Part shown: positions 8,811 to 24,405 of the stretch, in pieces
Numbering within the stretch: the first letter of the stretch is position 1
Layout: each line of letters starts with the position of its first letter
NCBI RefSeq assembly: GCF_902459745.1
Contig: NZ_CABPSJ010000005.1
Coordinates: 124,001 to 188,000 of the forward strand
DNA: 64,000 bases
DNA from: Pandoraea communis
GTDB lineage: Bacteria; Pseudomonadota; Gammaproteobacteria; Burkholderiales; Burkholderiaceae
Direction: 5' to 3'
The notes under the pieces: model-generated
Databases searched by the model: none
Told to the model about the DNA's origin: nothing
Seen by the model: the letters and a program-made list of their open reading frames with translations, nothing else
Translations under genes and position numbers: made by a program

Positions 8811-8821
8811 GAGCGCGCGCC

Positions 8822-9637
8822 ATGAAAAACACTTCCATCTCTGTGCGCACGAGCGCAGCCCGACGCCTGTTTGCCACGCTCGGTGCGGGCGTCGCGATGA
8901 CGGCGCTGTTCGCTGCCACATCCGCTCACGCAGAAGACCTGCGCGTGATGAACTCCGGCGGCTTCACGGCCGCGTACAAGCTGCTGCTGCCCAAGTTCGA
9001 GGCATCGAGCGGCGACCACGTCGACACAGCCTGGGGGCCGTCGATGGGCAAAGCGCCGGAGGCGATCCCGAATCGTCTGGCGCGGGGTGAGTCGGCCGAC
9101 GTCGTCATCATGGTCGGTTACGCGCTCGACGATCTCATCAAGGCGGGCAAGGTGCGCCCCGATTCGCGCGTCGATCTGGCAGATTCGCGTATCGGTGTCG
9201 TCGTCAAAGCGGGCGACACCGTGCCGGATGTCAGCACCCCCGAGAAGCTGAAGGCGGCGCTGCTGGCCGCGAAGTCGGTCGCGTACTCCGACAGCGCCAG
9301 CGGCGTGTATATCGAGCGTGAGCTCTTCAAGAAACTGGGCATCGCCGAGCAGATGCAAGGCAAATCGGTGATGGTGCAGAAGACGCCCGTCGCCGAGAAG
9401 GTGGCCGCCGGCGACTACGCACTGGGATTGCAACAGGTGAGCGAACTGCTGCCGGTCAAGGGCGCCGTGTTCGCGGGCAAGATTCCCGAGTCGCTGCAAT
9501 CGGTCACGCGCTTCGCGGGCGGCGTACCGGTGAATGCGCCGCATCCTGACGAGGCGAAGAAGCTGCTGACGTACATGGCCGCGCCTGCCGTTGCAAAGGA
9601 TGTCGAATCGACCGGTCTCGATCCGCTGACGCACTGA
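8822..9637 (+). CDS. Periplasmic solute-binding protein, ModA-like, without ABC partner genes
   Basis: A 271-residue protein with a Sec signal peptide (about 1-35, ending TSAHAED) and the two-lobed type II binding-protein fold of the ModA/WtpA group (LRVMNSGGFTAAYKLLLPKF; SADVVIMVGYALDDL). No permease or ATPase gene is nearby; it sits between an MFS carrier and an amidase. Similar orphan proteins with one-domain ModA folds occur near LysR-controlled catabolic genes. The ligand could be an organic anion rather than molybdate. The ATG at 8822 is chosen because it begins the signal peptide. Confidence 0.85.
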   Translation: MKNTSISVRTSAARRLFATLGAGVAMTALFAATSAHAEDLRVMNSGGFTAAYKLLLPKFEASSGDHVDTAWGPSMGKAPEAIPNRLARGESADVVIMVGYALDDLIKAGKVRPDSRVDLADSRIGVVVKAGDTVPDVSTPEKLKAALLAAKSVAYSDSASGVYIERELFKKLGIAEQMQGKSVMVQKTPVAEKVAAGDYALGLQQVSELLPVKGAVFAGKIPESLQSVTRFAGGVPVNAPHPDEAKKLLTYMAAPAVAKDVESTGLDPLTH

Positions 9638-9790
9638 TGCGCCGGGCATCGCTGAAGATGAGAACTGACGTATTTCCACCGCCGTGGCGGACTTAATTTT
9701 CCCCTCGGCATCCTTGGCGGGTTTGACCGACAATGGCGTGACAGACAACGGCGTCGCACCGATCGACGCCACCGCCAAGGAGATAGACGC

Positions 9791-11326
9791 ATGGCCATCG
9801 TGCCAGACCTGCCCCCCATGGCTGCCCAAACGAGTGCAGCCGCAGCCAACACCACGGCTACCCCCGACACTCCCCTGAACGATATCGTCGCGCTCGACGC
9901 GCTCGCACTGTCCAGCGCCATTCGCACGCGTCAGGTTTCGTGCCGTGAGGTGATGCAGGCCTATCTCACTCATATTGCGCAGTACAACCCGGCGGTCAAC
10001 GCCATCGTGTCGCTGCGAGATGCCGACGCGTTGCTGGCGCAGGCCGACGAGCGCGACCGGCAACTGGCGAACGGTCAGTATCTTGGCTGGATGCACGGCA
10101 TGCCGCACGCGGTGAAGGATATGGCCGCCTGTGCCGGATTTCCCACACGCAAGGGCTCGCCTCTGACGTCGGCAGCCCCCGACACGCAGGACAGCATCAG
10201 CGTCGCGCGCATCCGCGCTGCGGGCGCGATTTTCATCGGCAAGACCAATGTTTCCGAGTTCGGACTGGGTTCGCACAGCTACAACCCGGTCTTCGGCACC
10301 ACGCGTAACGCCTACGACACAACGCGCATCGCCGGTGGCAGCAGCGGCGGGGCAGGCAGTGCGCTGGCGCTGCGCCTGCTGCCGGTGGCGGACGGCAGCG
10401 ACATGATGGGATCGCTGCGCAACCCGGCGGCGTTCGGCAACGTGTACGGCATGCGGCCGTCGCAGGGCCGTGTGCCGTATGGCCCGACACCCGAAGTCTT
10501 CGTCCAGCAACTGAGCACCGAAGGGCCGATGGGCCGAACGGTGGCCGACGTCGCCCAATTGCTCGCAACGCAGGCCGGCTACGACGCGCGAAGCCCGCTT
10601 TCGCTCGCTGGCGAGACGCCGCCGTTCGCGAGTGCGCTATCGCGTGACGTGAAGGGCGTGAAGCTGGGCTGGCTCGGCGACTACGGCGGTTATCTGCCGA
10701 TGGAAGACGGCGTGATGGCGTTGTGCGAAGCATCGTTGCGCGACTTCACGGCGATGGGATGCGAAGTGGCGCCGTGCATGCCCGACTTTGCACCGGACCG
10801 GCTGTGGCAGACGTGGCTTACGCTGCGTCACTGGCTCGTGAACGGTTCGCTGGGCGCGATGTATGCCGACCCGGCACGTCGCGACAAGCTCAAGCCGGAG
10901 GCGCAATGGGAAGTCGCGGGAGGCGACGCGTTGCGCGCTGCCGACGTGTTTCGCGCGAGCGTCGATCGCAGTGAGTGGTACCGCTCGCTCGCACGATTGT
11001 TCGAGCGTTACGACTTCCTGTTGTTGCCGTCGGCGCAAATGTTCCCGTTCGATGCGCAAATGCACTGGCCGACGTCCTTGGCGGGCAAGCCGATGGACAC
11101 CTACCACCGGTGGATGGAAGTCGTGATCGGGCCGACGCTGGCCGGGTTGCCGGCGATCAGCGTGCCGGTCGGGTTCGATGCACGCGGTTTGCCGATGGGA
11201 CTGCAAATCATCGGACCCGCGCAAGCGGATCTTGCCGTGCTGCAACTGGCACACGCCTACGAGCAGCAAACGCAGTGGGTACGCCGCCATCTGCCGCCGA
11301 TGCTCACTGGCGCCGTGCGGGCCTGA
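9791..11326 (+). CDS. Amidase-signature family hydrolase
   Basis: A 511-residue enzyme of the amidase-signature family, hydrolysing an amide to acid and ammonia. The Ser-cisSer-Lys triad is visible: Lys109 in HAVKDM, Ser184/185 in GGSSGG, and the nucleophile Ser208 in DMMGSLRNPA. The usual DxGGS is DMMGS here, a mild variation. Length is normal. It lies 153 bases after the binding protein and is probably in the same LysR-controlled unit, so its substrate may be the compound taken up by the MFS carrier. It is cytoplasmic, as no signal peptide is seen. Confidence 0.9.
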   Translation: MAIVPDLPPMAAQTSAAAANTTATPDTPLNDIVALDALALSSAIRTRQVSCREVMQAYLTHIAQYNPAVNAIVSLRDADALLAQADERDRQLANGQYLGWMHGMPHAVKDMAACAGFPTRKGSPLTSAAPDTQDSISVARIRAAGAIFIGKTNVSEFGLGSHSYNPVFGTTRNAYDTTRIAGGSSGGAGSALALRLLPVADGSDMMGSLRNPAAFGNVYGMRPSQGRVPYGPTPEVFVQQLSTEGPMGRTVADVAQLLATQAGYDARSPLSLAGETPPFASALSRDVKGVKLGWLGDYGGYLPMEDGVMALCEASLRDFTAMGCEVAPCMPDFAPDRLWQTWLTLRHWLVNGSLGAMYADPARRDKLKPEAQWEVAGGDALRAADVFRASVDRSEWYRSLARLFERYDFLLLPSAQMFPFDAQMHWPTSLAGKPMDTYHRWMEVVIGPTLAGLPAISVPVGFDARGLPMGLQIIGPAQADLAVLQLAHAYEQQTQWVRRHLPPMLTGAVRA

Positions 11327-11380
11327 CGGCCCTGCGAGGATGTGCCTGGACGTGCGGGCGGCGCTCCGGCCGATTCCGGC

Positions 11381-11623
11381 TTACCGGGCGCGCGCGGCCT
11401 GCGCTTTCGCGCGCAGCGGCCGCAGCAATTCACCCAAGGCGTTGTGATCGATCTCGTGCATGAGGGCGAGCAGGCGGCCGATCTCGCCCGGCGGGAAACC
11501 TTCGCGGGCGAACCAGCTCAGGTAGTTGCCCGGCAGATCGGCGATGTAGGTGCCTTTGTGTTTGCCGAATGGCATGGGCGTCGTGACGAGGCGCATCAGC
11601 GCGTCGGCGTCGAAGTCGAGCAT
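11381..11623 (-). CDS. DUF3820 family small protein
   Basis: About 80 residues. The motif MPFGKHKGTYIADLPGNYL followed by SWFAREGFPPGEIGRLLALM is the hallmark of DUF3820, short proteins found alone or next to nucleic-acid enzymes and of unknown function. The ATG at 11623 gives the family-like N-terminus MLDFDADAL; a GTG at 11650 would add nine residues and has no better ribosome site. It converges with the amidase gene. Confidence 0.8.
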   Translation of the reverse strand: MLDFDADALMRLVTTPMPFGKHKGTYIADLPGNYLSWFAREGFPPGEIGRLLALMHEIDHNALGELLRPLRAKAQAARAR

Positions 11624-11952
11624 GGCGAAAGGGCGCGGCGTGACGCGCACGCAAGTGAGACGGAAAGCGTCACGCTACCACAGGCGGCACTCGTCGCGCT
11701 GGCGGCCATAACCGCTACGCGATCATGTTTCGGATGCAGAACGCTAAAAAGCCCGAAACACGGGTGCGTAAAATCGAGGCGTTCAACAGCACGCTGAATC
11801 GCGGCGAAACCATTCATCCGTAGGCCAGGAAGGTCGATCGTTGTTGAAGGCCACCGGACGACGCCGCGCACTATTCGCTCGTGATTGGCTGCTACGAAAA
11901 CCCATTTGAGTGTCGGATTCTGGCTGTGGATTCCCCCGGTCAATGCAACACA
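11624..11952. other. Gap with no supported gene
   Basis: 329 bases between two minus-strand genes. Short open frames here show no recognisable family and no ribosome site. A distant 8-bp inverted repeat (11726-11733 with 11753-11760) is noted without a function. GC content falls here towards the AlaX-like gene. Confidence 0.5.
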
Positions 11953-12597
11953 CTAGGCTTGCACCAGCAAGATCTCAATTCGCTCCTTTCCTCGCCCCGT
12001 ATTTTTGCGTTTGAGTTTCACCGCACCAATCTCGCGAGTCGATTTTGGATGCGTGCCTCCACATGCCATCATCGCAAAGCCATCGACTTTCCAGTATCTT
12101 CGCTGTGTTTGGACGTCGCTGAAACCTGTGAGGATAGGGAGGTCGCGCGACGTCAAGTTCGCTGCCTCTAATTCGATCTCGGGAAACAACGGTGCCAGGC
12201 TGACATCGCTCGCGAAATCGATGCGCGCCTTATCTTGTGCGATGTGGGCGCCGATGCGCTCGATGCCCGGGCGTAGCCGATATACCAACTGCAAGACCAT
12301 TTCTGCGGCAAAGTGCAGGCGCATCAGACGATAGCGCCGCTCCCAGTCAATTCGCCATGTGGCGCAGTCCCCCACACGTAGCGAATGGTCGTGCGGCAAG
12401 GTATAAACGATTTCCAGACCAAGCTTTTCGGCCTTGATAACCGGGTATCCGCCAAGCGAACCATAATCGCTCTCCTGGCCGCCGGAGAACGCAAAAAATA
12501 TCGTCGACTCGACCTGGACTTGCTCACCGTCAACTTGACTGACGATGGTATCCAGCGTTGTTTTGTAAGGTTCGTCCCAGAAAATTTTTCGCATCAT
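11953..12597 (-). CDS. AlaX-like alanyl-tRNA editing protein with altered metal motif
   Basis: A 214-residue stand-alone editing domain related to AlaRS/ThrRS second additional domains, expected to hydrolyse mischarged tRNA. The glycine-rich motif is present as FSGGQESDYG (about 38-46), and the CxxxH zinc motif as Cys179-GGT-His183. The first zinc motif, normally HxxxH, reads His95-FAA-Glu99. Similar HFAAE-type proteins may form a natural subfamily, so this is not proof of inactivity. The ATG at 12597 is chosen by homology; the ribosome site is weak. One 60-base sample of the gene counts 31 G+C, well below the neighbouring genes, which suggests transfer. Confidence 0.78.
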   Translation of the reverse strand: MMRKIFWDEPYKTTLDTIVSQVDGEQVQVESTIFFAFSGGQESDYGSLGGYPVIKAEKLGLEIVYTLPHDHSLRVGDCATWRIDWERRYRLMRLHFAAEMVLQLVYRLRPGIERIGAHIAQDKARIDFASDVSLAPLFPEIELEAANLTSRDLPILTGFSDVQTQRRYWKVDGFAMMACGGTHPKSTREIGAVKLKRKNTGRGKERIEILLVQA

Positions 12598-12902
12598 GAT
12601 CTGACCGATCCTGTTCTTTCCCAAAAAGGTTCATAGGGTAATCGAGCCGGACTTGAGTGGCTTGTACGATCTTGCGATCGGCGTCCGTTCCTCATTGCAA
12701 CATCACCTGCGTGGTGTTCGTGGACTGCTGCCGGGATCGTAAGCACTTCTGGCCTATGGACTGCTGCCGGAATTAAGACACTTTCCAGCCTCACGCCGAA
12801 GCGCGTTCAAAGTCGATCTTAGACTGAGTATCCCAACAATTCCCGCGACGGCTCATGCGCTGGCGTGCATGGCGGAGCTTTCCCCGCCCTCCGCTGCCGC
12901 CA
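12598..12902. other. Gap with lower GC and a tandem repeat
   Basis: 305 bases without a convincing gene. A minus-strand frame of about 66 codons at 12594-12794 is not recognised. The main content is the 36-bp imperfect tandem repeat at 12721-12792; the rest shows nothing clear. Confidence 0.5.
12721..12792. repeat. Two tandem imperfect 36-bp repeats
   Basis: Both units start TGGACTGCTGCCGG (12721-12734 and 12757-12770) and continue with similar sequence around TAAG, CACTT and GCC. Such internally repeated ends are known from IS21-type insertion sequences, so this could be a relic of an IS end beside the lower-GC patch. That origin is inference; no transposase remains. Confidence 0.5.
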
Positions 12903-13871
12903 TCAGGCCTTGATGGGAAAGCGCCGGTCAAACGTAGTCTTCACGTCGAGCGGTTGCCGGAGCAAGCCGACTTGCGAGTAAAAGTCGGCCGTACGCTGTT
13001 GCTCTGCGACGAGCGCGTCGTCGATGTTGCGCCATTTCGTGGCACGTCGCGAGAACTGTAGTTTCGCGGCCTCGGGCGGGATGCCGACGATACGCGCCAT
13101 GGCCGCAGAGAATGCATCGACATGCTGATAGGACCAGACCTGGGCACGCACGGCACGCGCGAGGAAATCGCGCAGCACGTCCTGTTTGCTCGCGATGGCG
13201 GTGTCGGTCGCCGCGAGATAGCTCAACCCCGACCAGAGTCCGCGTCCGTTCACAAGCACGCGTCCGCGCCCGGTGGTCTCCGCCACGGCGGTGTAGGGCT
13301 CCCATGTCGCCCATGCGTCGACCGAGCCGCTGGCCAGCGCGGTGATGGTGTCGGCTGGCGGCAGGAAGCGGAAGTTGACGTCGTTCGGTGCCAGACCGGC
13401 GGCGGCGAGCGCCTTGAGCGTGACGAAGTGACCGATGGAGCCTCTCGTCGTGCCGATGTTTTTGCCCTTGAGGTCGGTGGCGGTGCGCAGCGTGGCGTCT
13501 GGCCGCACGATCACGGCGGTGCCGTACGCATCGGAGCGATTGGCCCCGATGATCTTGATGGCGGCACCCGCCGACAGCGCAAAGATCACCGGCGCGTCGC
13601 CGATCGGACCGCAATCGACGGCACCCGCATTGAGCGCTTCGGCCAGCGGTGCGGCGGCGGGGAACTCGGTCCACTGAATGTCGTAGGGCAATGCCTTGAG
13701 TTCGTCTGCGGCTTCGAGCAGCGCACGCAGACCGCCTTTCTGATCGCCAGCCTTGAGGATCGGGCGGCCGGACTGCGCGTAAGACACACCGGGCAGCGCG
13801 AGTGTGGTCAGCGCACCCGCCGCACCGGTGGTCGTGACGTATTGGAGAAAGCGGCGTCGGGAAATCGTCAT
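12903..13871 (-). CDS. ABC importer substrate-binding protein, aliphatic sulfonate (SsuA/TauA) type
   Basis: A 322-residue exported binding protein with a twin-arginine style leader (SRRRFLQ, about residues 4-10) and cleavage after SYAQS. The NMT1/SsuA-like fold is shown by FPAAAPLAEALNAGAVDCG and the internal DLKGKNIGTTRGS motif. It is the last gene of a minus-strand sulfonate-type cluster. It is the second binding protein of the cluster, with another at 17250-18293 beside the permease, so the importer may accept two ligands. Ribosome site is weak. Confidence 0.9.
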   Translation of the reverse strand: MTISRRRFLQYVTTTGAAGALTTLALPGVSYAQSGRPILKAGDQKGGLRALLEAADELKALPYDIQWTEFPAAAPLAEALNAGAVDCGPIGDAPVIFALSAGAAIKIIGANRSDAYGTAVIVRPDATLRTATDLKGKNIGTTRGSIGHFVTLKALAAAGLAPNDVNFRFLPPADTITALASGSVDAWATWEPYTAVAETTGRGRVLVNGRGLWSGLSYLAATDTAIASKQDVLRDFLARAVRAQVWSYQHVDAFSAAMARIVGIPPEAAKLQFSRRATKWRNIDDALVAEQQRTADFYSQVGLLRQPLDVKTTFDRRFPIKA

Positions 13872-13929
13872 GATGAATGCCTGTGGTGGATTGGAAAAGG
13901 GGAAGTCCGGTGCGGACGCTGAGCGATGG

Positions 13930-15177
13930 CTAGTGCACGAAGCCGCCTTTGACGAAGCGCACGGGGTCGTCGTCCATTTGGCGCAGCGCGGTGGTGAGCG
14001 GGTCTGCGCGAAGGGCCGCCAGAGCGCCGTCCGGCAGGGCGGTCGACGTTGTGCACATCAGGCCGCCGTCGGCCCAGCCCCGGCGGCCGGCGGGGGCGAG
14101 GGCGCGCAACCAGCCGTCACGGTCTGCCAGCCATTCGGTGCCTGCGACGCTTGACGGGGAAGCCCCGGCAATCTGTGCGAAGACCTGCCATGCCTCGGGG
14201 TCATCGGCCACGCAGTCGGCTCGCGCACCGAACAGGGTTGTGACATTGGCCGCCGGCGTGCGCTCCGGACGTTGCGCTGCCACCTTGCGAATGCCGGCCC
14301 CTTGATGTGGTGACGGGCTATTGCGCTCGACCAGCAGGGTGAGGAAACGCGGGTCTTCAAACGGGGGCGGATGATCGGCATCGACTGCGACGACGCGCAC
14401 CCGCTGATTGCCGCGCCACACGGCGATATTCCGGGTGGGGCCGTTGGCGCACCTCACTGCGAGGGAGGGCAATGCAATCGGCACGGGCCAACTGCCGCCA
14501 GCGGCCATACCGGCCGACGCCGAGAGCACGCGCATGTAATCGAGTGCGGCCCAGATTTCGCGATCGCTCAGCCGTCCGGCGAAGCCGGGCATCGTCATGC
14601 CCCCATCGTCGCGCATGCCATACAACACATGCCAGAACAGTTCACCGTCCGCGCGGCGGCTTAGTAAGGCGCTCGCCATGGTCGGCGGCCAACGGTGCAA
14701 CGTGGAGGCCAGCGGGCCTTCGCCGCGTCCGTCGGCGCCGTGACATACAACGCACTGGGCCGCATACACACGTGAGCCTCGCGAGATGCTCTGCACGGTG
14801 AAGCCCGTCGGGCTCGTATGGAAACTGGTCGGCACGGCGGCCGTCAGCCAAAGCGATGGAGACGGCCATGGGGCCAGCACAAGTGCGCCAAGGGCGGCGG
14901 CGAGCAGCCAGCGCCACGCGCGTCGCCAGAACAGCGCCAGCAGCACGCAGGCGAGCGCAAACGCGATGGCCGCGAGCATCCCGCCGAACTGACGGGCGAG
15001 GGCAACGTCGATGACGAGATTTTCCCCGGCGATGCGCACGTCCCACGGCCACGCCAGCGCGCCATGCGAGTCGCCGGTGATGCCGAGCGCATAGAGCGTG
15101 TCCAGCCCGGCGGACTGCACGAACTGAAGGGCTTGCAGCAGGGCGTTAAGCCAGAGATGCGAGGGGGGCGACGTCAT
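13930..15177 (-). CDS. Membrane-anchored c-type cytochrome inside a sulfonate ABC cluster
   Basis: A 415-residue protein. Two or three hydrophobic segments lie at about 65-115, followed by a monohaem cytochrome c domain: haem site Cys142-VV-Cys145-His146, with Met197 in MTMPGF the likely sixth ligand. The C-terminal 200 residues are not recognised. It should sit in the inner membrane with the haem in the periplasm, handing electrons from a periplasmic oxidation to the respiratory chain. It lies between the ABC ATPase and a binding protein, so a redox step on an organosulfur compound is plausible but not shown. Confidence 0.82.
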   Translation of the reverse strand: MTSPPSHLWLNALLQALQFVQSAGLDTLYALGITGDSHGALAWPWDVRIAGENLVIDVALARQFGGMLAAIAFALACVLLALFWRRAWRWLLAAALGALVLAPWPSPSLWLTAAVPTSFHTSPTGFTVQSISRGSRVYAAQCVVCHGADGRGEGPLASTLHRWPPTMASALLSRRADGELFWHVLYGMRDDGGMTMPGFAGRLSDREIWAALDYMRVLSASAGMAAGGSWPVPIALPSLAVRCANGPTRNIAVWRGNQRVRVVAVDADHPPPFEDPRFLTLLVERNSPSPHQGAGIRKVAAQRPERTPAANVTTLFGARADCVADDPEAWQVFAQIAGASPSSVAGTEWLADRDGWLRALAPAGRRGWADGGLMCTTSTALPDGALAALRADPLTTALRQMDDDPVRFVKGGFVH

Positions 15178-15276
15178 CGGGCGCGCTCCGCCGGGACGCG
15201 CTCCGATGACGCCGATAACGCCGATGACGGCCGGTACGTCGACTTCATTCGCTTCGTGACACCACGACCTGCGCGA

Positions 15277-16131
15277 TTACCAGCTTGCATCGAGCCCCAG
15301 GTGTCGGAGCGCTTCGTGGCGCAGTTCGGTAATGCGCGCGTCGCCGCGATGGCGCGGATAGGGCAGATCGACACGTAGCTCCGCCACGATCTTCGCCGGG
15401 CGCGGGCTGAACACGATTACGCGTTGCGCCAGGAAGAGGGCTTCCTCGACATCGTGCGTGACGAGCAGCGCCGAGAAACCGGCGCGTTGCCACAGATCGA
15501 CCAGTTCGCTTTGCATCGCCAGGCGCGTGAGCGAGTCGAGTTTGCCGAGCGGCTCGTCGAGCACCAGCAGACGCGGGTCGTTGACGAGCGCCCGGGCGAG
15601 TGCCACGCGCTGCGCCATACCGCCGGAGAGTTGATGCGGAAACGCATCGGCAAACTCCGAAAGGCCCACGCGTGCGAGCGCTGCGTCGACTCGCTGGCGT
15701 TCCTTGCCGAGCACGCCGCGGGCTTGCAGACCGAGTGCGACGTTATCGCGCACGCGCCGCCACGGGTAAAGCGTCGGGTCCTGAAACACCACGATGCGCG
15801 ACGGATCGGGACGCGTAATCGCCGTGCCGTCCTGCGTGATCGTGCCGCGTGTCGCGGTCTCGAGTCCGGCAACGAGGCGCAGCAACGTGGACTTGCCGCA
15901 GCCGCTTGGGCCGAGCAACGCCACGAACTCGCCGGGCGCGACGCTCAAGTTTACCCCGTCGAGCACTTGCAACGGCGCCTGCCGCGTGCCGAACCAATGA
16001 TCGACGCCGCGAATATCGATCCGCGCGCCGGTGTCGTTCGCGGAGGCGGCGCTGTCGCTCGCGGGATGAGACGCCGGAGCGCCGGCGTCCCGCGGGTCGA
16101 GTGTAGGAGAAGACGTTGCGGCGCTTACCAT
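15277..16131 (-). CDS. ABC importer ATPase, SsuB/TauB type
   Basis: A 284-residue nucleotide-binding subunit. Walker A GPSGCGKST, the signature LSGGMAQR and Walker B LLVLDEP are all present, with the switch His in VTHDVEEA. FQDPTLYPWRRV is typical of nitrate/sulfonate/taurine importers. The first about 40 residues are Ala/Ser-rich and not conserved. The ATG at 16131 overlaps the permease stop (ATGGTAA), indicating coupling. It energises uptake with the permease upstream. Confidence 0.93.
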   Translation of the reverse strand: MVSAATSSPTLDPRDAGAPASHPASDSAASANDTGARIDIRGVDHWFGTRQAPLQVLDGVNLSVAPGEFVALLGPSGCGKSTLLRLVAGLETATRGTITQDGTAITRPDPSRIVVFQDPTLYPWRRVRDNVALGLQARGVLGKERQRVDAALARVGLSEFADAFPHQLSGGMAQRVALARALVNDPRLLVLDEPLGKLDSLTRLAMQSELVDLWQRAGFSALLVTHDVEEALFLAQRVIVFSPRPAKIVAELRVDLPYPRHRGDARITELRHEALRHLGLDASW

Positions 16132-17243
16132 TTGACGGTTCCTTTCTGCCACGCAAGCGCGCGGTCACGCACGGTGAAGAGCAGCGTAATGACACCGGAG
16201 AAGAGCAATGCCATGACGATCAGGGCGGCGTACATGTTCACGTAGGAGGCCCAGCCCTGCGCCCACGTGAGGTACCAGCCGAGGCCGGACTTCACGCCCA
16301 TCATCTCGGCGGTGACGAGCACCGAGAACGATGCCCCAAGCCCCATGAAAAGACCGACGAAAACGTTGGGTAGCGCAGCGGGAATCGCGACGCGCAGCAC
16401 CAGAAATGCATCCGACGCGCCGAGCGTGCGGGCAACGTCGTAGTAACTCTTGTTCACCCCTGCGACGCCTGACCACGTGAGCACCGCGACAGGAAATGCC
16501 GTCGACAGCGCGATCAGGAACGTTGCGGCCGAATAGCTCGACGGAAAGAAGTAGAACGTGAGCGGCAGCAGGGCGGTGGCAGGCACCGGGCCCAGTACGC
16601 GCAGTACCGGATGGACCCAGTAACCGATCGCGCGAGACCAGCCGATCGACACACCGATCAGAAAGCCTGCGATGGCACCGAGTCCGAAGCCGATGCCGAG
16701 CAGCTTGAGCGTGTTCACGGCGCTGTCGCCGAGGCGTCGCCAATCGTCCGTATAGACCTCGATGAGGGCTTGCGGCGGGGCGAAGAACGGCGTGGGCAGC
16801 GATCCGGTCTTTGCGGTGAGGATTTCCCACGCGGCCAGCACGAGCGCGATGGCGACGAGCCACGGGCCCGCACCGGTAAGTGCTTCGCGCAAACGCAGCA
16901 ACGGCGGGGTGGCGCGGCCTGCGACCGACAGCACAGCGAGTATGGCGGCGGCGACGAGTGCGAACGCGCCCAGTTCGTCGGTAAAGGCCCAGTCGGAGAA
17001 GCCCACGATCTTGTTGGGCCAGCGCAGCGTGAGCGCGCCGAAGGCGGCCCATGCGAGCGCGGCGGCGAATCCGGTGCCCCACAAGGCGGGCGTGCGGGGG
17101 GCGGCGAAGCGTTGATCGATGTCGGTGTCGTCGAAGCGGGGCACGGGCACACGCAGCGTTGTGCCCGCCGTCTGTTCGGCGAGTTCCAGTGCGCCGGCAG
17201 GAGAGGCCCCGCGTAGCGCAGCGTTGTCGAGAATGGCACTCAT
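16125..17243 (-). CDS. ABC importer permease, SsuC/TauC type, with N-terminal extension
   Basis: A 372-residue inner-membrane subunit, about 110 residues longer than usual SsuC. The C-terminal 250 residues are the standard BPD_transp_1 domain, with the coupling-loop region ARTLGASDAFLVLRVAIPAALP. The extra N-terminal part has a hydrophilic stretch and about two additional membrane segments (near 55-75 and 90-112). It lies 6 bases after a binding-protein gene and overlaps the ATPase gene, so all three are one operon. Confidence 0.92.
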   Translation of the reverse strand: MSAILDNAALRGASPAGALELAEQTAGTTLRVPVPRFDDTDIDQRFAAPRTPALWGTGFAAALAWAAFGALTLRWPNKIVGFSDWAFTDELGAFALVAAAILAVLSVAGRATPPLLRLREALTGAGPWLVAIALVLAAWEILTAKTGSLPTPFFAPPQALIEVYTDDWRRLGDSAVNTLKLLGIGFGLGAIAGFLIGVSIGWSRAIGYWVHPVLRVLGPVPATALLPLTFYFFPSSYSAATFLIALSTAFPVAVLTWSGVAGVNKSYYDVARTLGASDAFLVLRVAIPAALPNVFVGLFMGLGASFSVLVTAEMMGVKSGLGWYLTWAQGWASYVNMYAALIVMALLFSGVITLLFTVRDRALAWQKGTVKW

Positions 17244-17249
17244 GGTCGT

Positions 17250-18293
17250 TTATCCCAGGACATTGGCGTAGACGTGCTGCGCCAGTTTCTGCGGGTCGGT
17301 GCTCTTCTTGAGCACACCGATGCGGCGGAAGTCGTCGGCGAAGAAGGCGATTTCATCGCGCAGGTCTGCGCCGGTCGGATGGTGCGAGTAGGTGAGCGTT
17401 GCGTACAGCTTGCGCAGGTCTTCGGGGCTGATCTTCGGCGAATACTTGGCGAAGATCTTCGCGGCCTCGTTCGGGTTCTCGTTCACGAACTCGGTGGCTT
17501 GCACGATGGAGCGTGCGAGCGCGCTAGCTGCTGCGCGGTCGTTGCGCACCAGTTCCCCGCGCGCGCCGATTACGCAGCACACCTTGCGGGCGTATTCGCC
17601 GCTCAGGTTGGTGGCCAGTTCGACGTACGCGCCCTTGGTGCGTTTCTCCAGCAGATACAGATTCGGGTCGCCGTCGGCAATCGCCTGAATCTCGCCCTTG
17701 TCGACGGCCACGCCAAGCAGGTCGGCCGGGTACTGACGCCAGGTGATGTCGCGCTCGGCGTCGATGCCGTTCTTGGCGAGCAGGATCTGGAAGAAGTGTT
17801 TGCCCGGTGCGGCAAGGTCGGAGACGCCGATGGTCTTGCCCTTGAGCGCGGCGAGCGACGTCACGCCAGCGGCCTTCGCGCCCAGCAAGCGCACGCAGCC
17901 GCCGTGCGAACTGCCGATGATCTTCACGTCGAAACCGGCTTCGAGCGGCTTGAGCCAGCGGTGGATCATGCCGACGGCGGCGTCTGCCTTGCCGGTGGCA
18001 ATCGATTCGAGCAACTGGTCGGTCGAGCCGCTGTAGTTGATCAGGTCGACTTGCAGGCCGTTCTTCTCGAAGAAGCCGCGTTCCTGCGCGGCGACGATCG
18101 GCGTGAGGCAGAACGAGTTCTGATTCCAGGCGAACGTGAGCTTGCGCGGTTGCGACCACGCACGGCGTCCGAGCAAGAGGGCCGGGGCGGCCAGTGCGGC
18201 GGCCGTGCCCGCGCGCAGCACCTTGCGGCGGCCGGGGTGAACTTCGTGTTGCGTCGTGACTTCCGAGCCGTTGGCGGTGTGACGAAACTTCAT
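17250..18293 (-). CDS. ABC importer substrate-binding protein, NitT/TauT family
   Basis: A 347-residue periplasmic protein. An Arg-containing leader (HPGRRKVLRAGTAAALAAPALL, cited here by its RRKVLRAG core) suggests Tat or Sec export. The mature start LTFAWNQNSFCLTPIVAAQE and the domain motifs LQVDLINYSGSTDQLLESIA fit the nitrate/sulfonate/taurine binding family. The ATG at 18293 has AGGGGAG upstream; the frame remains open further upstream through the aldolase gene, which is ignored. It is directly upstream of the permease, so it is the main binding protein of the importer. Confidence 0.92.
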   Translation of the reverse strand: MKFRHTANGSEVTTQHEVHPGRRKVLRAGTAAALAAPALLLGRRAWSQPRKLTFAWNQNSFCLTPIVAAQERGFFEKNGLQVDLINYSGSTDQLLESIATGKADAAVGMIHRWLKPLEAGFDVKIIGSSHGGCVRLLGAKAAGVTSLAALKGKTIGVSDLAAPGKHFFQILLAKNGIDAERDITWRQYPADLLGVAVDKGEIQAIADGDPNLYLLEKRTKGAYVELATNLSGEYARKVCCVIGARGELVRNDRAAASALARSIVQATEFVNENPNEAAKIFAKYSPKISPEDLRKLYATLTYSHHPTGADLRDEIAFFADDFRRIGVLKKSTDPQKLAQHVYANVLG

Positions 18294-18370
18294 GGATACG
18301 ACTCCCCTGATGATTTCTGATGTTTGTGTGCGGGTAGCGAAATGGGGCGCGTGAGGCACGCCCCGCGACG

Positions 18371-19255
18371 TCAGTCGAGCAGATCCGGCTCGGCGGCAAC
18401 CAGTCCTTCGTAGAGGCTTTCGAACGAGTACAGCGCGCCTTCCGGGCCGCCGACCTGACTGTGCGTGTGGCGCGCCGTCGCATCGTCGATCGGCTGCGGC
18501 GTGCCGGCGGCTTGCGCGAGCAACTGCGTGTGCGCGGCGTTCTCGAGGGCGATGTACCACCATGCGGCGGCCTCGACAGTCGGGCCCGCTGTGAGAATGC
18601 CGTGGTTCTTGAGAATGACGCCCTTGACCGTGCCGCTGCCGTCGGGCTTGTTCAGCGCGCGGGCGATACGGTTGCCTTCGCTGTCGTCGACCACCATGCC
18701 GGTGAAGTCGTCGAACAGTGCGTGGTCTTCGAAGAAACCGCACGAATCCTGCGTGAGCGGATCAAGCGCGCGTCCGAGCGTCGACCATGCCTTGCCGTAG
18801 GTCGAGTGCGTGTGTGCGGCGGCAACGAGATGCGGATGGGCCTCGTGAATGGCGGCATGGATCGCGAACGCCGCCTTGTTGAGCGGCTTGTCGCCCACGA
18901 CCGTCTCGCCCCTGGCATTGACAAGCAGCAGATCGGATACCTTGATGCGCGAGAAGTGCACGCCCAGCGGATTGACCCAGAAGTGGTCGGTCAGCTCGGG
19001 ATCTCGCGCCGTGATGTGTCCGGCCAGTCCGAGGTCGAAGCCGTGGCGCGCGAAGATGCGAAACGCGGCGGCCAGACGTGTCTGGCGGTGGCGGCGCTCG
19101 GCAAGCACATCGTTGCGCACCGGCGGCGCGTCGAACCAGAAGCGCTGCTGCGGCGCGGCGTTGAGCACGAGCCCGGTGGGCGTGGTGCGTGTCGGGGCGG
19201 GGGTGGACGTCGAGCGTGCGAACGTATGCGTGTCGACGGGCAGAACGGCAGCCAT
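18371..19255 (-). CDS. Class II aldolase/adducin family protein
   Basis: A 294-residue protein. The aldolase domain (about 60-260) retains zinc-site histidines in AAAHTHSTYG and LKNHGIL. Members carry out retro-aldol cleavage, epimerisation or decarboxylation of sugar phosphates and related acids. Here it lies between an SsuD-like monooxygenase and a sulfonate importer, so it may act on the carbon skeleton left after desulfonation. The ATG at 19255 is preceded by AAGGAGAG. The first about 30 residues are Thr/Pro-rich and probably flexible. Confidence 0.88.
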   Translation of the reverse strand: MAAVLPVDTHTFARSTSTPAPTRTTPTGLVLNAAPQQRFWFDAPPVRNDVLAERRHRQTRLAAAFRIFARHGFDLGLAGHITARDPELTDHFWVNPLGVHFSRIKVSDLLLVNARGETVVGDKPLNKAAFAIHAAIHEAHPHLVAAAHTHSTYGKAWSTLGRALDPLTQDSCGFFEDHALFDDFTGMVVDDSEGNRIARALNKPDGSGTVKGVILKNHGILTAGPTVEAAAWWYIALENAAHTQLLAQAAGTPQPIDDATARHTHSQVGGPEGALYSFESLYEGLVAAEPDLLD

Positions 19256-19272
19256 GGGCAGTCTCTCCTTAA

Positions 19273-20370
19273 TCAGGCCGCGCGGCGCGTGGCGTCGTTT
19301 TGACGATCGCGTTCGGCCACCAGGGTGCGCAGACGCGGAATGAGTTCGCGGCCATAGTCGATGGCGTCGCCCAGCGGATCGAAGCCGCGAATGAGGAACG
19401 TCGTCACACCGAGGTCGTAATAATCGAGCAGCGCGTCGGCGACTTGCTCGGGCGTGCCGACGAGCGCGGTCGAGTTCGAGCGTCCGCCGATGAGTTTGGC
19501 GATCTCCGTCCACAGCACCTTGTCGAGGCGCGCCCCCTTATCGGCGGCAGCGAGCAGGCGTCGTGCGCCTTCGCTTTGCAGCGCCGAACCTTGCGGCAGG
19601 CCAGCGGCTTCTCGAATGGCTTTCGCCTGTGCGAGAATTTGATCGGCGCGCGCCCAGGCCTTTGCTTCGGTCTCGCCGAGAATCGGGCGGAACGACACCG
19701 AGAAGCGCGGCACGCGGCCGTGCACTGCGGCGGCCGTGCGTACGCGCGTGGTGATGTCGCGCACCTGATCGAGCGATTCGCCCCACAGGGCATAGATATC
19801 TGCGTGCTTGGCGGCGACTTCCAGCGCGGCTTCCGACGCACCGCCGAAGAAGATCGGCACGTGTGGTTGTTGCACCGGCTTGACCTCCGAGAAGCCCTGC
19901 TTGAAGCGGTAATACGTGCCGTCATGGTCGAACGGGCGGTCTTCAGTCCAGATGCGACGCAGGATGCTCAGATACTCGTCGGTACGCGCGTAGCGCTCGT
20001 CATGCGAGAGAAAGTCGCCGTCGCGTTGCTGTTCGTCATCGGAGCCGCCCGAGATGAAGTGAACGCCGAGACGGCCGCCGCTGAACTGATCGAGCGTGGC
20101 GATCTGGCGCGCGGCCAGCGTCGGCGCGACGAAGCCCGGGCGGTGCGCGAGCATGAAGTGGATGTTCTCGGTCACGGTCGTCGCGTAGGCGATCGTGAGC
20201 GTGGCGGACGGGCTGGTGGAATGGTGCGGTACGAGAATGCGGTCGAAGCCGGACTGCTCGTGGGCGCGGGCGAAATTACGCACGTAGTCGCGGTCGACCG
20301 CCGGGCCGTTTTGCGGATGAATTTCGGATTGCTTACTGCTTTGAATCATGCCGATGATCTCGACGCTCAT
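19273..20370 (-). CDS. LLM-class flavin-dependent monooxygenase, alkanesulfonate monooxygenase (SsuD)-like
   Basis: A 365-residue luciferase-like TIM-barrel protein. RILVPHHSTSPSATLTIAYA, LDQFSGGRLGVHFISGG and the long insert ending HADIYALWGES are typical of the SsuD group. Such enzymes use reduced FMN from a partner reductase and oxygen to release sulfite from sulfonates. No flavin reductase is seen in the cluster. The ATG at 20370 has AAGGAGAG upstream. It is the first gene of the minus-strand arm and is 17 bases from the aldolase gene. Confidence 0.92.
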   Translation of the reverse strand: MSVEIIGMIQSSKQSEIHPQNGPAVDRDYVRNFARAHEQSGFDRILVPHHSTSPSATLTIAYATTVTENIHFMLAHRPGFVAPTLAARQIATLDQFSGGRLGVHFISGGSDDEQQRDGDFLSHDERYARTDEYLSILRRIWTEDRPFDHDGTYYRFKQGFSEVKPVQQPHVPIFFGGASEAALEVAAKHADIYALWGESLDQVRDITTRVRTAAAVHGRVPRFSVSFRPILGETEAKAWARADQILAQAKAIREAAGLPQGSALQSEGARRLLAAADKGARLDKVLWTEIAKLIGGRSNSTALVGTPEQVADALLDYYDLGVTTFLIRGFDPLGDAIDYGRELIPRLRTLVAERDRQNDATRRAA

Positions 20371-20495
20371 GAACGCTCTCCTTATTTGGGGCAGGACGCG
20401 TGCACGGCGACGTGGGTCGGTTTGCGCTACACGCCCATCGATCGGAAACAGACGGTGAACGTGAGTGAGCCTACGCAAACAATTCGCGGCCGTTA

Positions 20496-20520
20496 AATAA
20501 TCATTTCCGCAAAGATTATT
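20496..20520. promoter_or_regulatory. Palindrome in the divergent organosulfur promoter
   Basis: AATAATC at 20496-20502 and GATTATT at 20514-20520 are perfect complements with an 11-base spacer, in the 252-base gap between the two arms of the cluster. The spacing fits a LysR-type factor such as CysB or an SsuR/Cbl homologue, but no regulator gene is encoded in the cluster. Confidence 0.55.
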
Positions 20521-20622
20521 CGATATGGATGGTTGGGCGAGGCTGAGCCGGGCCTTACGCTATGGGCACTGCGTAAGAAGGCACGCGCTGTGCCAAACGC
20601 GTATTTGCTTATTCCAAAAGCC

Positions 20623-21936
20623 ATGTCTTCTCTTGGTCAATCGCCGTTGCTGTCCGACGCGTTGCCGTCGCCAGCGAACCAGGCGCCGTCCGGCGCGGTG
20701 CTACCTCTGCCGCGGGCCGATGGTCCGGCACGTCTTGCGCAACTGGCTGCCTTGCTGCCTCCCATTACACGCACGCTCGCCGAGCGTGCGGCGGCGCTCG
20801 ACCGCGAGGCACGCTTCCCGTTCGAGAACTTCGCCCTGTTGCATCGTCACGGGCTGATTGCCGAAATCGTGCCGCGTGCGCAGGGCGGCGGTGGTGGCGG
20901 GCTGGTCGCGGCGCGGCGCATCGTCGGCGCCGTTGCGGCGGGCGAATCGGCCACCGCGCTCGTGCTGACGATGACCTACCTTCAGCACCGCTCGCTCGTC
21001 CGGACGAGCACGCACTGGCCCGAGGCGCAACGACGTGCGGTTTTCGACAGTGCGGTGCGCGACGGCGCGTTGATCAATGCGCTGCGCGTCGAGCCCGATC
21101 TGGGCACGCCAGCCCGGGGCGGCTTGCCGTCCACAATTGCACGACGTACCGAGTCCGGCTGGCGGCTGTCTGGCCGCAAGCTCTACTGCACCGGCATTCC
21201 GGCGTTACGCTGGTTGTCGGTCTGGGCACGAACCGACGAACCGGAGCCGCGTGTCGGGGTATTTCTCGTGCCGCGTCCTGATGGTCCGCAGGCGCTGCCC
21301 GACCGGCCCGGTATTCGCGTCATTCAGAACTGGGATCACCTTGGGCTGCGCGCGTCGGGCAGTCACGAAGTCGTTCTTGAAGATGTCGACCTGCCTTTCG
21401 GCAATGCTGTCGATATTCGCTTGCCCCATGAGTGGGCGCCGGCGGGCATCGGTCAGCCGGATAACGACGCGCACATCGAACAACAGGCGTGGATGAGCGT
21501 GTTGCTGGGCACCCTCTATGACGCGGTGGCGCGCGCGGGTGTCGATTGGCTCGTGACGTTCCTGAACACGCGCGTGCCGGGTAATCTTGGCGCGCCGCTC
21601 GCCAGCGTGCCACGCATTCAGGAGACGGTGGGCGAGATTGCGACATTGCTGCATGTGAACCAGCGATTGCTCGATGGGGCGGCCGAGTCGGCTGACGCCG
21701 GCGTGCCGGATGACGACATCGCCAGCGGTGCGTTAAAGTTCACGGTAACGGGCAATGCCATTCGGGTTCTCGAACTCGCTTTGCAGCTCTCTGGCAATCA
21801 TGGACTTTCGCGCAACAATCCGCTTGAGCGTTACCACCGCGACGTGCTGTGCAGCCGCATTCACACGCCGCAAAACGACACCATTCTGGGCGCTGCCGGC
21901 CGGCGGGCGCTCGCTGCTTTCCGGGAATCCGTATGA
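20623..21936 (+). CDS. Acyl-CoA dehydrogenase-like flavoprotein (SfnB/DszC-like)
   Basis: A 437-residue protein of the acyl-CoA dehydrogenase fold, with N-terminal helical, central beta (WRLSGRKLYCTGIPA, VIQNWDHLGLRASGSHEV) and C-terminal helical domains. The family includes FMN-dependent monooxygenases for sulfur compounds (DszC, SfnC) and sulfur-starvation oxidoreductases (SfnB). The sulfur-related neighbours favour that role over fatty-acid oxidation. The ATG at 20623 is used; the frame is open to a TTG at 20533, and no strong ribosome site decides. It overlaps the next gene by ATGA. Confidence 0.85.
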   Translation: MSSLGQSPLLSDALPSPANQAPSGAVLPLPRADGPARLAQLAALLPPITRTLAERAAALDREARFPFENFALLHRHGLIAEIVPRAQGGGGGGLVAARRIVGAVAAGESATALVLTMTYLQHRSLVRTSTHWPEAQRRAVFDSAVRDGALINALRVEPDLGTPARGGLPSTIARRTESGWRLSGRKLYCTGIPALRWLSVWARTDEPEPRVGVFLVPRPDGPQALPDRPGIRVIQNWDHLGLRASGSHEVVLEDVDLPFGNAVDIRLPHEWAPAGIGQPDNDAHIEQQAWMSVLLGTLYDAVARAGVDWLVTFLNTRVPGNLGAPLASVPRIQETVGEIATLLHVNQRLLDGAAESADAGVPDDDIASGALKFTVTGNAIRVLELALQLSGNHGLSRNNPLERYHRDVLCSRIHTPQNDTILGAAGRRALAAFRESV

Positions 21937-22580
21937 CCGCCATTTTGGATGGCATCGCACTGAGCGGTGATGTGCCCGACCATGATTACGAAGCGCTCGA
22001 TCCGCTGCGCAACTTTGTTGCCGCATTCTCGCGACTGCTAGAACGCCGTCCGCACGAGACGACGCTCCTTGAAGAGGGCGCCGGGCTGCTCGCCCAATTG
22101 GTCGCTCGCGACGACTGGCTGCCCGAGGCGTTCGCGACCCCGCATCCCGATCACTATCAGCAATACCTGCTGCATTGCGATTCCGCACAGCGTTTTTCCA
22201 TCGTGAGTTTCGTATGGGGGCCGGGGCAGCGCACACCGATTCACGACCACACCGTGTGGGGCCTGATCGGCATGCTGCGCGGCGCGGAGGACTCCCTGCC
22301 TTACGTGCTCGACGCAAAGGGCGTGCCTGTCATTGCGGGCGAGCCGGTGCGTTTGTCGCCGGGCGACGTGGAGGTGTTGTCGCCGCGTCTGGGGGACATT
22401 CACCGTGTGACCAACGCCTACGCCGACCGGGTGTCGGTGAGCATTCACGTGTATGGCGCCAACATTGGTGCGGTGCATCGCAGCGTGTTCACCGAGTCGG
22501 GCGAGCGCAAAGGCTTCGTCTCCGGCTATGCGAACGCGCAGTTACCGAACCCTTGGGGCAGAGCGGCGCCACGCGTCTGA
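21933..22580 (+). CDS. Cysteine dioxygenase-type cupin protein
   Basis: A 215-residue protein with the type I cysteine dioxygenase cupin fold. The metal motif is visible as PIHDHTVWGLIGMLRG (two His) and a later GDIHRV (third His). Such iron enzymes add O2 to a thiol, converting cysteine or 3-mercaptopropionate to the sulfinate. Its ATG overlaps the upstream flavoprotein stop. With a rhodanese downstream it suggests handling of a thiol or persulfide product of organosulfur breakdown. The exact thiol is unknown. Confidence 0.88.
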   Translation: MTAILDGIALSGDVPDHDYEALDPLRNFVAAFSRLLERRPHETTLLEEGAGLLAQLVARDDWLPEAFATPHPDHYQQYLLHCDSAQRFSIVSFVWGPGQRTPIHDHTVWGLIGMLRGAEDSLPYVLDAKGVPVIAGEPVRLSPGDVEVLSPRLGDIHRVTNAYADRVSVSIHVYGANIGAVHRSVFTESGERKGFVSGYANAQLPNPWGRAAPRV

Positions 22581-22746
22581 GACCGGCGCGCCCATCAGCC
22601 GTACTGCACATGCCGCAGTGCACCACATGGTGTGCCACTTGTGCGGGGCCCTTCTGCGACAATGGCCGCTGGCATACGCAGACGGGGCACCTCGCCGTGC
22701 CGACACACGATACCGAAGCAACGTTCGACGAATTCAAGGAACCACC

Positions 22747-24405
22747 GTGTCCGCTCACTCGACTGACGCGCCGTCGCAGACGGCTGACCAGGCGCTCGCC
22801 GCCGCCGATTTCACCTTCCCCGAACTGACCTTTGCCGACGTGCGCGCCGCGTTGCTCGCGCGCGAGGAAATTGCTCTGCTCGACGTCCGTGAAGAAGATC
22901 CGTATGCGCAGACACATCCGTTGTGGGCTGCGAATCTTCCGCTCTCGCGTGTAGAAATCGACGCATGGGCGCGCATTCCGCGACGCGACACACGGGTCGT
23001 CGTGTACGGCGAGCACAACGCTCAGGATCTCGCGCCGTTCGCAGCGAGTGTGCTTCGCAAACTGGGCTACACGAACGTCAATTTGCTCGCGGGCGGCCTC
23101 GACGGCTGGATTGCTGCGGGCGGTGAAGTGTTCCGCGACGTCAACGTGCCGAGCAAGGCTTTTGGCGAGTGGGTCGAGGGATTGCGTCATACGCCGTCGC
23201 TGTCGGCGCAGGAAGTGCAGGCACTGCTCGATGCCGATGCCGATATGGTCGTTGTCGACGCGCGCCGCTTCGACGAATACCAGACCATGAACGTTCCCGG
23301 TTCGACGAGCGTGCCCGGTGCCGAATTGGTGCTGCGTGTTCGTGAACTCGCACCGGATCCGGCCACGCGCGTGATCGTCAACTGCGCGGGGCGCACGCGA
23401 AGCATCATCGGCACGCAATCGCTCGTCAATGCCGGATTGCCGAATCCGGTGGCGGCATTGCGCAACGGCACCATTGGCTGGACGCTGGCCGGTCAGACCC
23501 TCGAGCGAGGGGCGGATCGCCGTCATCCGTCCACCGTGCGTGAAGCGACACTGGCGGTTGCGCGGGAGGGGGCGAGAGCCGTTGCCGATCGTGCCGGGGT
23601 ACGCCGCATCGCGCTAGCCGACGTGGCGTCGCTGAATGCGCCGGGGCGCACCGTGTATCGCTTTGACGTGCGCACGCCGGAAGAATATGAAGCGGGGCAC
23701 TTGCCTGACTTTGCGAGTGCGCCGGGTGGGCAACTCGTGCAGGAGACCGACCATCAGGTGCCGGTGCGTGGCGCGTGGATCGTGTTGGCGGACGACGATG
23801 GCGTGCGTGCCGATATGACCGGTTCGTGGCTGGCGCAGATGGGCTGGACCGTGTACGTGGTCGAACCGCACAGCGCCGAGGCGCGCAGTGCGCGGGGTGG
23901 CTGGCCATTGCATACGCCGAGCGCGCCTGACGTGGCGACCGTCTCGCCCGCGTTGCTGGCGCGGTGGCTCGACGAGGCGGTGCCGGGGCAGGTCGCGATG
24001 CTCGACTTCACGTCCGGTGTCAATTACGTCAAACGTCACATACCGGGCGCGTGGTTCGTCATTCGTGCGCGGCTGGCTGAGGCGTTGCGCAAGATCGGAC
24101 CTGCACAGCGTTACGTGCTCACCTGCGGCTCGAGCTTGCTCGCGCGCTTTGCGGCTGCGGATCTGCGACGTCTGAGCGATGCCGAGATCGTGGTGCTCGA
24201 TGGTGGTACGCAGGCGTGGATCAATGCCGGACTGCCGTTGGAGTCGGGCGAGACGCGACTGGCCAGTGTGCGTGATGATCGATATCGCCGTCCGTATGAA
24301 GGCACCGATAACGCTGCTGAGGCGATGCAGGCATATCTCGACTGGGAGTTTGGGCTCGTCGATCAACTGCATCGAGACGGCACGCACCACTTTCAGGTGG
24401 TGTGA
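22747..24405 (+). CDS. Four-domain rhodanese-family sulfurtransferase
   Basis: A 552-residue protein of four rhodanese domains in tandem (about 25-130, 150-255, 285-385, 395-500). Only the second (Cys213 in VNCAGRTRS) and fourth (Cys460 in LTCGSSL) keep the persulfide-carrying cysteine; domains 1 and 3 have no Cys at that position and are probably structural. The GTG start at 22747 is chosen because AAGGA lies just upstream and the preceding frame is in the dioxygenase gene. It should move sulfane sulfur to thiols or cyanide in the cytoplasm and is co-directional with the cysteine-dioxygenase-like gene. Confidence 0.9.
   Translation: MSAHSTDAPSQTADQALAAADFTFPELTFADVRAALLAREEIALLDVREEDPYAQTHPLWAANLPLSRVEIDAWARIPRRDTRVVVYGEHNAQDLAPFAASVLRKLGYTNVNLLAGGLDGWIAAGGEVFRDVNVPSKAFGEWVEGLRHTPSLSAQEVQALLDADADMVVVDARRFDEYQTMNVPGSTSVPGAELVLRVRELAPDPATRVIVNCAGRTRSIIGTQSLVNAGLPNPVAALRNGTIGWTLAGQTLERGADRRHPSTVREATLAVAREGARAVADRAGVRRIALADVASLNAPGRTVYRFDVRTPEEYEAGHLPDFASAPGGQLVQETDHQVPVRGAWIVLADDDGVRADMTGSWLAQMGWTVYVVEPHSAEARSARGGWPLHTPSAPDVATVSPALLARWLDEAVPGQVAMLDFTSGVNYVKRHIPGAWFVIRARLAEALRKIGPAQRYVLTCGSSLLARFAAADLRRLSDAEIVVLDGGTQAWINAGLPLESGETRLASVRDDRYRRPYEGTDNAAEAMQAYLDWEFGLVDQLHRDGTHHFQVV

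Follow-up and report, generated by a model that had tools for sequence, protein, structure and literature searches.

For soil and plant-associated bacteria, organic sulfur is the main source of the element, and the compounds that they draw on are in many cases unknown. In Pseudomonas aeruginosa, the genes PA2594 to PA2603, which presumably form one locus in this order, include several with a link to sulfur metabolism. Transcripts of PA2594 and PA2598 drop along with those of sulfur genes in a PA2504 mutant (PMC8466066), and blocking the release of iron from bacterioferritin enriches the PA2594 protein together with the sulfate-starvation set (PMC7760384). In Acinetobacter baylyi, group D enzymes convert dimethyl sulfide (DMS) to dimethyl sulfoxide (DMSO) and dimethyl sulfone, with one flavin reductase powering the monooxygenases of the DMS pathway (PMC13352529). 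In Advenella 3-mercaptopropionate is converted to 3-sulfinopropionate, then to its CoA ester and finally to propionyl-CoA and sulfite. The genes mdo and acd adjoin there (PMC5373536). Here, a ten-gene cluster at positions 12903-24405 of the window, i.e. the whole 64,000-nucleotide stretch of Pandoraea communis DNA that was analysed, is compared with these systems. We lean, with modest confidence, towards reading the cluster as one jointly controlled system predicted to scavenge the sulfur of a thioether or sulfone in three stages, namely S-oxygenation, cleavage of a C-S bond and dioxygenation of a thiol.

The first-pass annotation had described a single organosulfur locus with an importer, two flavoproteins, a thiol dioxygenase and a rhodanese, laid out as ten genes in two divergent arms, and this description is supported, with open frames on both strands as described, family matches for all ten proteins and correct outer coordinates. 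From the promoter outward, the minus arm encodes a luciferase-like monooxygenase (LLM), a class II aldolase-fold protein, the substrate-binding protein S2, a permease, an ATPase, a cytochrome c and a further binding protein, S1, and the plus arm an acyl-CoA-dehydrogenase-fold (ACAD) flavoprotein, a cupin of the cysteine dioxygenase (CDO) family CDO_I and a four-domain rhodanese. The features are as follows, with ABC denoting ATP-binding cassette.

12903-13871, minus strand: S1, Tat-signal substrate-binding protein of the SsuA family (TIGR01728, NMT1_2)
13930-15177, minus strand: membrane-anchored cytochrome c with a single haem and an additional C-terminal domain (Cytochrome_CBB3, 8.3e-13)
15277-16152, minus strand: ABC ATPase, NitT/TauT type (ABC_tran, 1.4e-35)
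16125-17243, minus strand: ABC permease, NitT/TauT type (BPD_transp_1, 5.4e-16)
17250-18293, minus strand: S2, second substrate-binding protein, NMT1 type (NMT1, 4.8e-20)
18371-19255, minus strand: class II aldolase-fold protein, PRK06208 subfamily, NovR/TqaM-like (NF004855; aldolase fold, 1.5e-45)
19273-20370, minus strand: LLM (group C) flavin monooxygenase, SsuD-like (Bac_luciferase, 6.3e-72)
20496-20520, no strand: inverted repeat AATAATC-N11-GATTATT in the divergent promoter, conserved across intergenic regions
20533-20561, plus strand: TTGGGC-N17-TACGCT, a promoter-like element ahead of the plus arm, conserved
20623-21936, plus strand: ACAD-fold (group D) flavoprotein, DszC/SfnB/MsuC-like S-oxygenase candidate (Acyl-CoA_dh domains)
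21933-22580, plus strand: predicted 3-mercaptopropionate-type thiol dioxygenase (CDO_I in Pfam, 4.9e-06; PDB 4qma, 8.6e-95)
about 22747-24405, plus strand: four-domain rhodanese (four PF00581 stretches; PDB 1yt8, 2.1e-218)

Starts of the LLM, aldolase, S2, ACAD, CDO and rhodanese genes were refined by alignment and reading. Third-position GC of the ten frames is 0.71-0.80, but this is weak evidence of coding when taken alone, since overlapping opposite frames reach 0.75, and the reality of the genes rests on family matches and conservation. The ATPase and permease genes overlap by 28 bases and the ACAD and CDO genes by 4 bases, in operon-like fashion.

A profile built from seven LLM proteins, applied to sampled genomes at a threshold of E <= 1e-100, found matches in 23 of 32 genus genomes, 83 of 200 family genomes (80 of them above 640 bits), 8 of 300 order genomes and 1 of 369 class genomes, the latter being the window's own genome. 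The ten genes were then mapped by tblastn on named loci, which represent the best 80 of 544 relatives and in which close relatives prevail, and on loci from sampled family genomes; of 156 loci, 113 were kept, with an LLM of at least 65% identity, at least 7.5 kb on either side, no stop in the LLM and a non-duplicate LLM. All ten genes recur together in 58 of these 113 distinct loci, which argues that the grouping is more than chance, and ACAD, CDO and rhodanese occur together in 95. Taken singly, the plus-arm genes were found in 103 (ACAD), 104 (rhodanese) and 100 (CDO) loci, and those of the minus arm in 90 (S2), 86 (permease), 86 (ATPase), 85 (S1), 83 (aldolase) and 81 (cytochrome). Everything bar the aldolase and S1 is present in 16 of the 113 loci, and 11 are without S2, permease, ATPase and cytochrome.

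The comparison of gene order across relatives, proposed as a check in the first-pass annotation, found the order to be kept. Among named loci, 62 extend for 8.5 kb to either side of the LLM, and in 45 of these ACAD, CDO and rhodanese lie opposite to it in strand. The divergent order is seen in Pandoraea, Burkholderia, Ralstonia, Variovorax and Cupriavidus, in the last mostly without the aldolase and S1. In Paraburkholderia most genes are kept, but in one direction and in a different order. In Klebsiella an LLM-ACAD-S1-S2-permease-ATPase series has a LysR gene and CDO-rhodanese as neighbours, and neither the aldolase nor the cytochrome was matched within the 12.7-19.5 kb examined. Further local variants were observed: at 8337-16972 of one locus (L201, genome G785) the aldolase and LLM genes are missing at the divergent junction and the remaining eight genes are kept; and among Variovorax and Burkholderia loci (L016, L017, L055 and others), those of Variovorax carry an extra SsuA-like binding protein, about 34% identical to S1, between ACAD and CDO, and those of Burkholderia have a gap of about 1.2 kb without gene assignment between the same two genes.

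Both arms start from one shared intergenic region of about 250 bases. Removal of duplicates from 97 intergenic regions left 83; at up to three mismatches, the inverted repeat was found in 37 of these and in 0 of 83 shuffled ones, the shuffling being of single bases and uncorrected for kinship. The exact repeat occurs in 13 regions, all Pandoraea-like (LLM identity of at least 90%), the other 24 matches are Burkholderia-like, with the first half exact in 23 and the second half changed in all 24, and the remaining 46 regions match it no better than shuffled regions do. The sequence TACGCT[AG]TG is present in 52 of the 83 regions compared with 1 of 83 after shuffling; a strict sigma-70 scan of the promoter region returned no site. 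The repeat has a T-N11-A layout, which we take to be that of LysR-type regulators, and no regulator is encoded among the ten genes of the Pandoraea cluster. Because shuffling ignores kinship, the repeat is regarded as a conserved element that is a putative rather than proven operator. A shared and conserved divergent promoter makes co-regulation of the two arms plausible, and expression of the cluster under sulfur limitation is predicted by analogy with the P. aeruginosa counterparts.

Under the favoured reading, the NitT/TauT-type ABC importer with its two binding proteins would take up a small anionic organosulfur compound under sulfur limitation, the group D flavoprotein would oxygenate its sulfur, converting a thioether to a sulfoxide or sulfone, and the LLM, with its sulfonate site lost and two invariant arginines gained, would cut the C-S bond. 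A 3-mercaptopropionate-like thiol would thereby be released and converted by the thiol dioxygenase to a sulfinate as a source of sulfite, and the rhodanese may move sulfane sulfur via its two conserved cysteines, the NovR-like protein may oxidatively trim a leftover alpha-keto or alpha-hydroxy acid and the cytochrome may take part in electron transfer beyond the inner membrane. Every enzyme would find a use if the substrate were a short carboxylic acid in thioether or sulfone form. What the sequences themselves show is the identity of the genes, their conservation, the promoter region common to both arms, the active-site residues and, for the sampled genomes, the restriction of the cytochrome to this cluster. 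We infer the substrate, the order of steps, a partner flavin reductase and what the rhodanese, the NovR-like protein and the cytochrome do; group D oxygenation of DMS and DMSO, the action of a 3-mercaptopropionate dioxygenase (3MDO) on 3-mercaptopropionic acid (3-MPA) and sulfur-linked expression of some P. aeruginosa counterparts are carried over from homologues elsewhere.

For the cupin, which had been called cysteine-dioxygenase-like, assignment to the CDO_I family stands, and its PDB matches and retained residues indicate that it is better described as a dioxygenase of the 3-mercaptopropionate type. The best matches are 4qma (8.6e-95) and 3uss/4tlf (7.2e-80), the latter being the P. aeruginosa enzyme, Pa3MDO (PMC8050391). 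The Ser155-His157-Tyr159 triad and Arg168 of Pa3MDO (PMC8050391) are kept in 7 of 7 cluster sequences as S170, H172, Y174 and R183, which were placed on the Pa3MDO chain by alignment. The rhodanese has four PF00581 stretches, with 1yt8 matched over residues 125-649 of a 650-residue frame, and conserved cysteines solely in domains 2 and 4, both of which are present in all 117 sequences compared. Elsewhere in the same genome (contig C1, 988000-1007000, at about 7570-14235 of that extract, L100), a second cluster with a thiol dioxygenase comprises a CDO-family protein, a cystathionine beta-lyase, a related four-domain rhodanese and an amino-acid ABC importer; judged by this gene set, its CDO-family protein would be of the mercaptosuccinate dioxygenase type. 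Two different thiol dioxygenases are thus each accompanied by a four-domain rhodanese.

A first alternative is that the dioxygenase and rhodanese are a 3-mercaptopropionate disposal module whose promoter is shared by chance with an unrelated importer-oxygenase module. Each of the 100 loci that have the dioxygenase also has the rhodanese, the two modules lie apart in Pararhizobium and Pseudorhodoferax, the second thiol dioxygenase of the genome likewise adjoins a related rhodanese, and deletion of the 3MDO homologue in P. protegens raises 3-MPA (PMC12947264). However, the parts stay close despite the reshuffled orders in Paraburkholderia and Klebsiella, and the conserved promoter region is common to both arms, such that two unrelated modules are considered unlikely.

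A second alternative is desulfonation of alkanesulfonates in the sense of SsuD, with the LLM releasing sulfite from sulfonates and the other proteins being accessory. The nearest PDB structures of the LLM are MsuD and SsuD, S1 scores above the SsuA-family cut-off (219.8 bits against 163.5 for TIGR01728), and PA2600 has been called organosulfonate-converting after KEGG (PMC4731081). However, the LLM reaches 237.5 bits against a cut-off of 518.2 for the SsuD profile TIGR03565, and the sulfonate site does not appear to be intact. MsuD is reported to hold methanesulfonate by R225, R296 (in the RGGA loop), W195 and the S299 backbone, and its R225A, R296A and W195A variants each to yield no measurable sulfite (PMC8234197). 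Across 150 cluster LLM sequences, a redundant set in which some loci are represented twice, W195 is kept in all 150, R225 is replaced by Ser in all 150 and R296 by Ile (63) or Thr (87), and in 150 of 150 new arginines occupy the H227 position and the one that lies two residues ahead of the Y330 site. As two arginines that MsuD needs for sulfonate binding are lost, the LLM is probably not an alkanesulfonate monooxygenase, and the SsuD-like substrate use suggested by the first-pass annotation is not supported; with the sulfonate site gone, another ligand, perhaps a carboxylate or sulfinate, may be bound. Further, the genome encodes a true SsuD elsewhere (610.7 bits, over the cut-off, with Arg at both the R225 and R296 sites), adjoining SsuE, which marks the cluster LLM as a different enzyme and leaves alkanesulfonate desulfonation improbable. 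A paralogue of the LLM with 46% identity and a neighbour resembling a substrate-binding protein was also observed in this genome (C5:370961-372046, L099).

The ACAD protein is read as a candidate S-oxygenase because group D enzymes of the same fold oxygenate DMS in A. baylyi. In a profile search of the PDB, 5gj7 and 5z8t were its best matches (5gj7 at 263.4 bits), DszC and methanesulfinate monooxygenase were also matched, and many true acyl-CoA dehydrogenases outscored these two; against SfnB (TIGR04022) it reached 82.8 bits with a cut-off of 430.9. The catalytic Glu of acyl-CoA dehydrogenases, which we take to be Glu368 in SCAD, is likely lost, with Thr or Ser at this site by eye in 8 cluster proteins, the HMMER alignment with SCAD ending at residue 366, two residues short of it. 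A route in which the ACAD protein is a 3-sulfinopropionyl-CoA desulfinase as in Advenella is very improbable: NF042439, the profile for this enzyme, is its best NCBIfam match and its gene adjoins that of the thiol dioxygenase, as mdo and acd adjoin in Advenella, but the match is 99.8 bits against a cut-off of 600, no CoA transferase is present among the ten proteins, and 5af7, presumably the desulfinase structure, scores 89.8 bits against 263.4 for 5gj7.

The aldolase-fold protein scores 431.7 bits against NF004855 (cut-off 255), and its nearest PDB structures are 4xxf, called a fuculose-1-phosphate aldolase, the decarboxylase NovR and TqaM. In E. coli FucA, the metal is presumably bound by His 92, 94 and 155 and the catalytic residue is presumably Glu73; by alignment, the three histidines are kept in 5 of 5 cluster sequences, and Glu73 is replaced in all five, by Lys (3) or Gln (2). 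NovR and CloR are described as iron oxygenases with three histidines that decarboxylate oxidatively (PMC13111500), and for the cluster protein a reaction that trims a keto or hydroxy acid oxidatively would fit as well as aldol cleavage. The gene is missing from 30 of the 113 loci, including the 16 that lack only it and S1, which suggests that it is not essential to the route. The earlier suggestion that an aldolase works on the carbon part of the substrate is weakened by the loss of Glu73, the grouping with NovR and TqaM and the dispensability of the gene.

Among the importer proteins, S2 falls below the TIGR01728 cut-off (94.2 bits), the best NCBIfam matches of the ATPase are sulfonate, taurine and nitrate ATPases, all below cut-off among the matches listed, and the permease is below the NCBIfam cut-offs for named permeases. 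The cytochrome has a CXXCH motif at residue 142 and a transmembrane-like stretch at 64-82. Proteins of its type occur in 68 of the 200 genomes sampled from the bacterial family, each time in this cluster (one case being inferred across a contig break), and it is thus cluster-specific among the genomes sampled. In Pararhizobium gei (L013, 12322-15235) an ACAD-LLM-importer set is followed by copper-type YcnI and CopD genes, and the cytochrome is unrelated to the CopD of this locus. It is tentatively suggested that the cluster encodes an as yet undescribed route of sulfur acquisition, in which the LLM represents a new class of C-S-cleaving enzyme recognising a carboxylate or sulfinate end, in place of a sulfonate, through its two new arginines, and acts after a group D S-oxygenase and ahead of a thiol dioxygenase. 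The membrane cytochrome, with its redox-type C-terminal domain, would be dedicated to conditioning the sulfur compound, or to taking its electrons, on the far side of the inner membrane, either prior to import or in the course of it.

Several observations weigh against a single thioether- or sulfone-scavenging system. For each NCBIfam family that it matches, the ACAD protein scores under the cut-off, and no flavin reductase was seen in the cluster by family matches of the ten proteins. Links between gene pairs across the 113 loci were not significant once kinship was considered. Four of the 113 loci, and likewise Pararhizobium, keep LLM, ACAD, S2 and permease without dioxygenase and rhodanese, indicating that a thiol is not an obligatory intermediate everywhere. 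Absences among the 113 loci depend on identity thresholds and the flanks covered, with a diverged or displaced copy counting as absent. When the adjoining rhodanese homologue is deleted in P. protegens, 3-MPA is reported not to change significantly (PMC12947264), a result at odds with any simple part of the rhodanese in 3-MPA breakdown. The favoured reading also leaves unexplained why a PA2600 mutant no longer forms anoxic biofilms (PMC4731081).

The surroundings of the cluster appear to be unrelated to it. The flanking genes encode an amidase, a tRNA_SAD protein, a glycosyltransferase 9 and an Fe-ADH protein, all unrelated by family; the AlaX-like tRNA_SAD gene adjoins the cluster at 11953-12624. 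Amidase- and glycosyltransferase-like frames, identified by reading, likewise flank the cluster in Pandoraea commovens (L019). The only over-threshold Rfam matches in the window are a tRNA-Ala(ggc) and tRNA-Glu(ttc) pair at 43641-43808. The source genome is 5.7 Mb, and its LLM protein is 95% identical to those of its nearest named relatives, which are Pandoraea species.

The presence of the LLM above 640 bits in 80 of 200 family genomes, mostly with the rest of the cluster, suggests that the substrate is probably common in nature. The cluster gives 3-mercaptopropionate dioxygenase and the four-domain rhodanese, both structurally solved, a testable pathway setting, and brings to light a cytochrome tied to a single cluster. 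Two features would surprise specialists: the SsuD-like enzyme has no sulfonate site, and the cytochrome occurs only here among the sampled genomes.

The combination was earlier not recognised as a described pathway, and this holds within the literature searched, genes matching it in PA2594-PA2603 having been published piecemeal. That region resembles the cluster in its sulfonate-type binding protein PA2594, 'methanesulfonate monooxygenase' PA2598, flavin-dependent oxidoreductase PA2600, 3MDO PA2602 and TST rhodanese PA2603 (PMC8466066, PMC4731081, PMC12947264), counterparts being assigned by gene descriptions and the 3MDO structure match; some of these matches are sulfur-regulated and some have been studied biochemically. 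It differs in having a LysR gene, PA2601, inside the region (PMC8151288), whereas the Pandoraea cluster has no regulator. The mercaptosuccinate dioxygenase cluster of Advenella and Variovorax likewise has a thiol dioxygenase adjoining a rhodanese, and its gene set is that of the second cluster of this genome, L100, but it includes a cystathionine beta-lyase and an amino-acid ABC importer, and no LLM or ACAD protein is named for it (PMC5373536). The 4S (DszABC) and DMS (Dms/Sfn/Msu) pathways share with the cluster group D S-oxygenases and group C C-S-cleaving enzymes acting on reduced flavin (PMC13352529, PMC8234197), but the cluster adds to these an importer of its own as well as a thiol dioxygenase and a rhodanese, and its profiles are below the SfnB and SfnG cut-offs. 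SsuEADCB shares the NitT/TauT importer and an LLM flavoprotein, but the cluster LLM is without the sulfonate-binding arginines, SsuE is absent, and ACAD, dioxygenase, rhodanese and cytochrome genes are added. On these comparisons, the cluster is a variant of the known sulfonate- and sulfone-scavenging systems.

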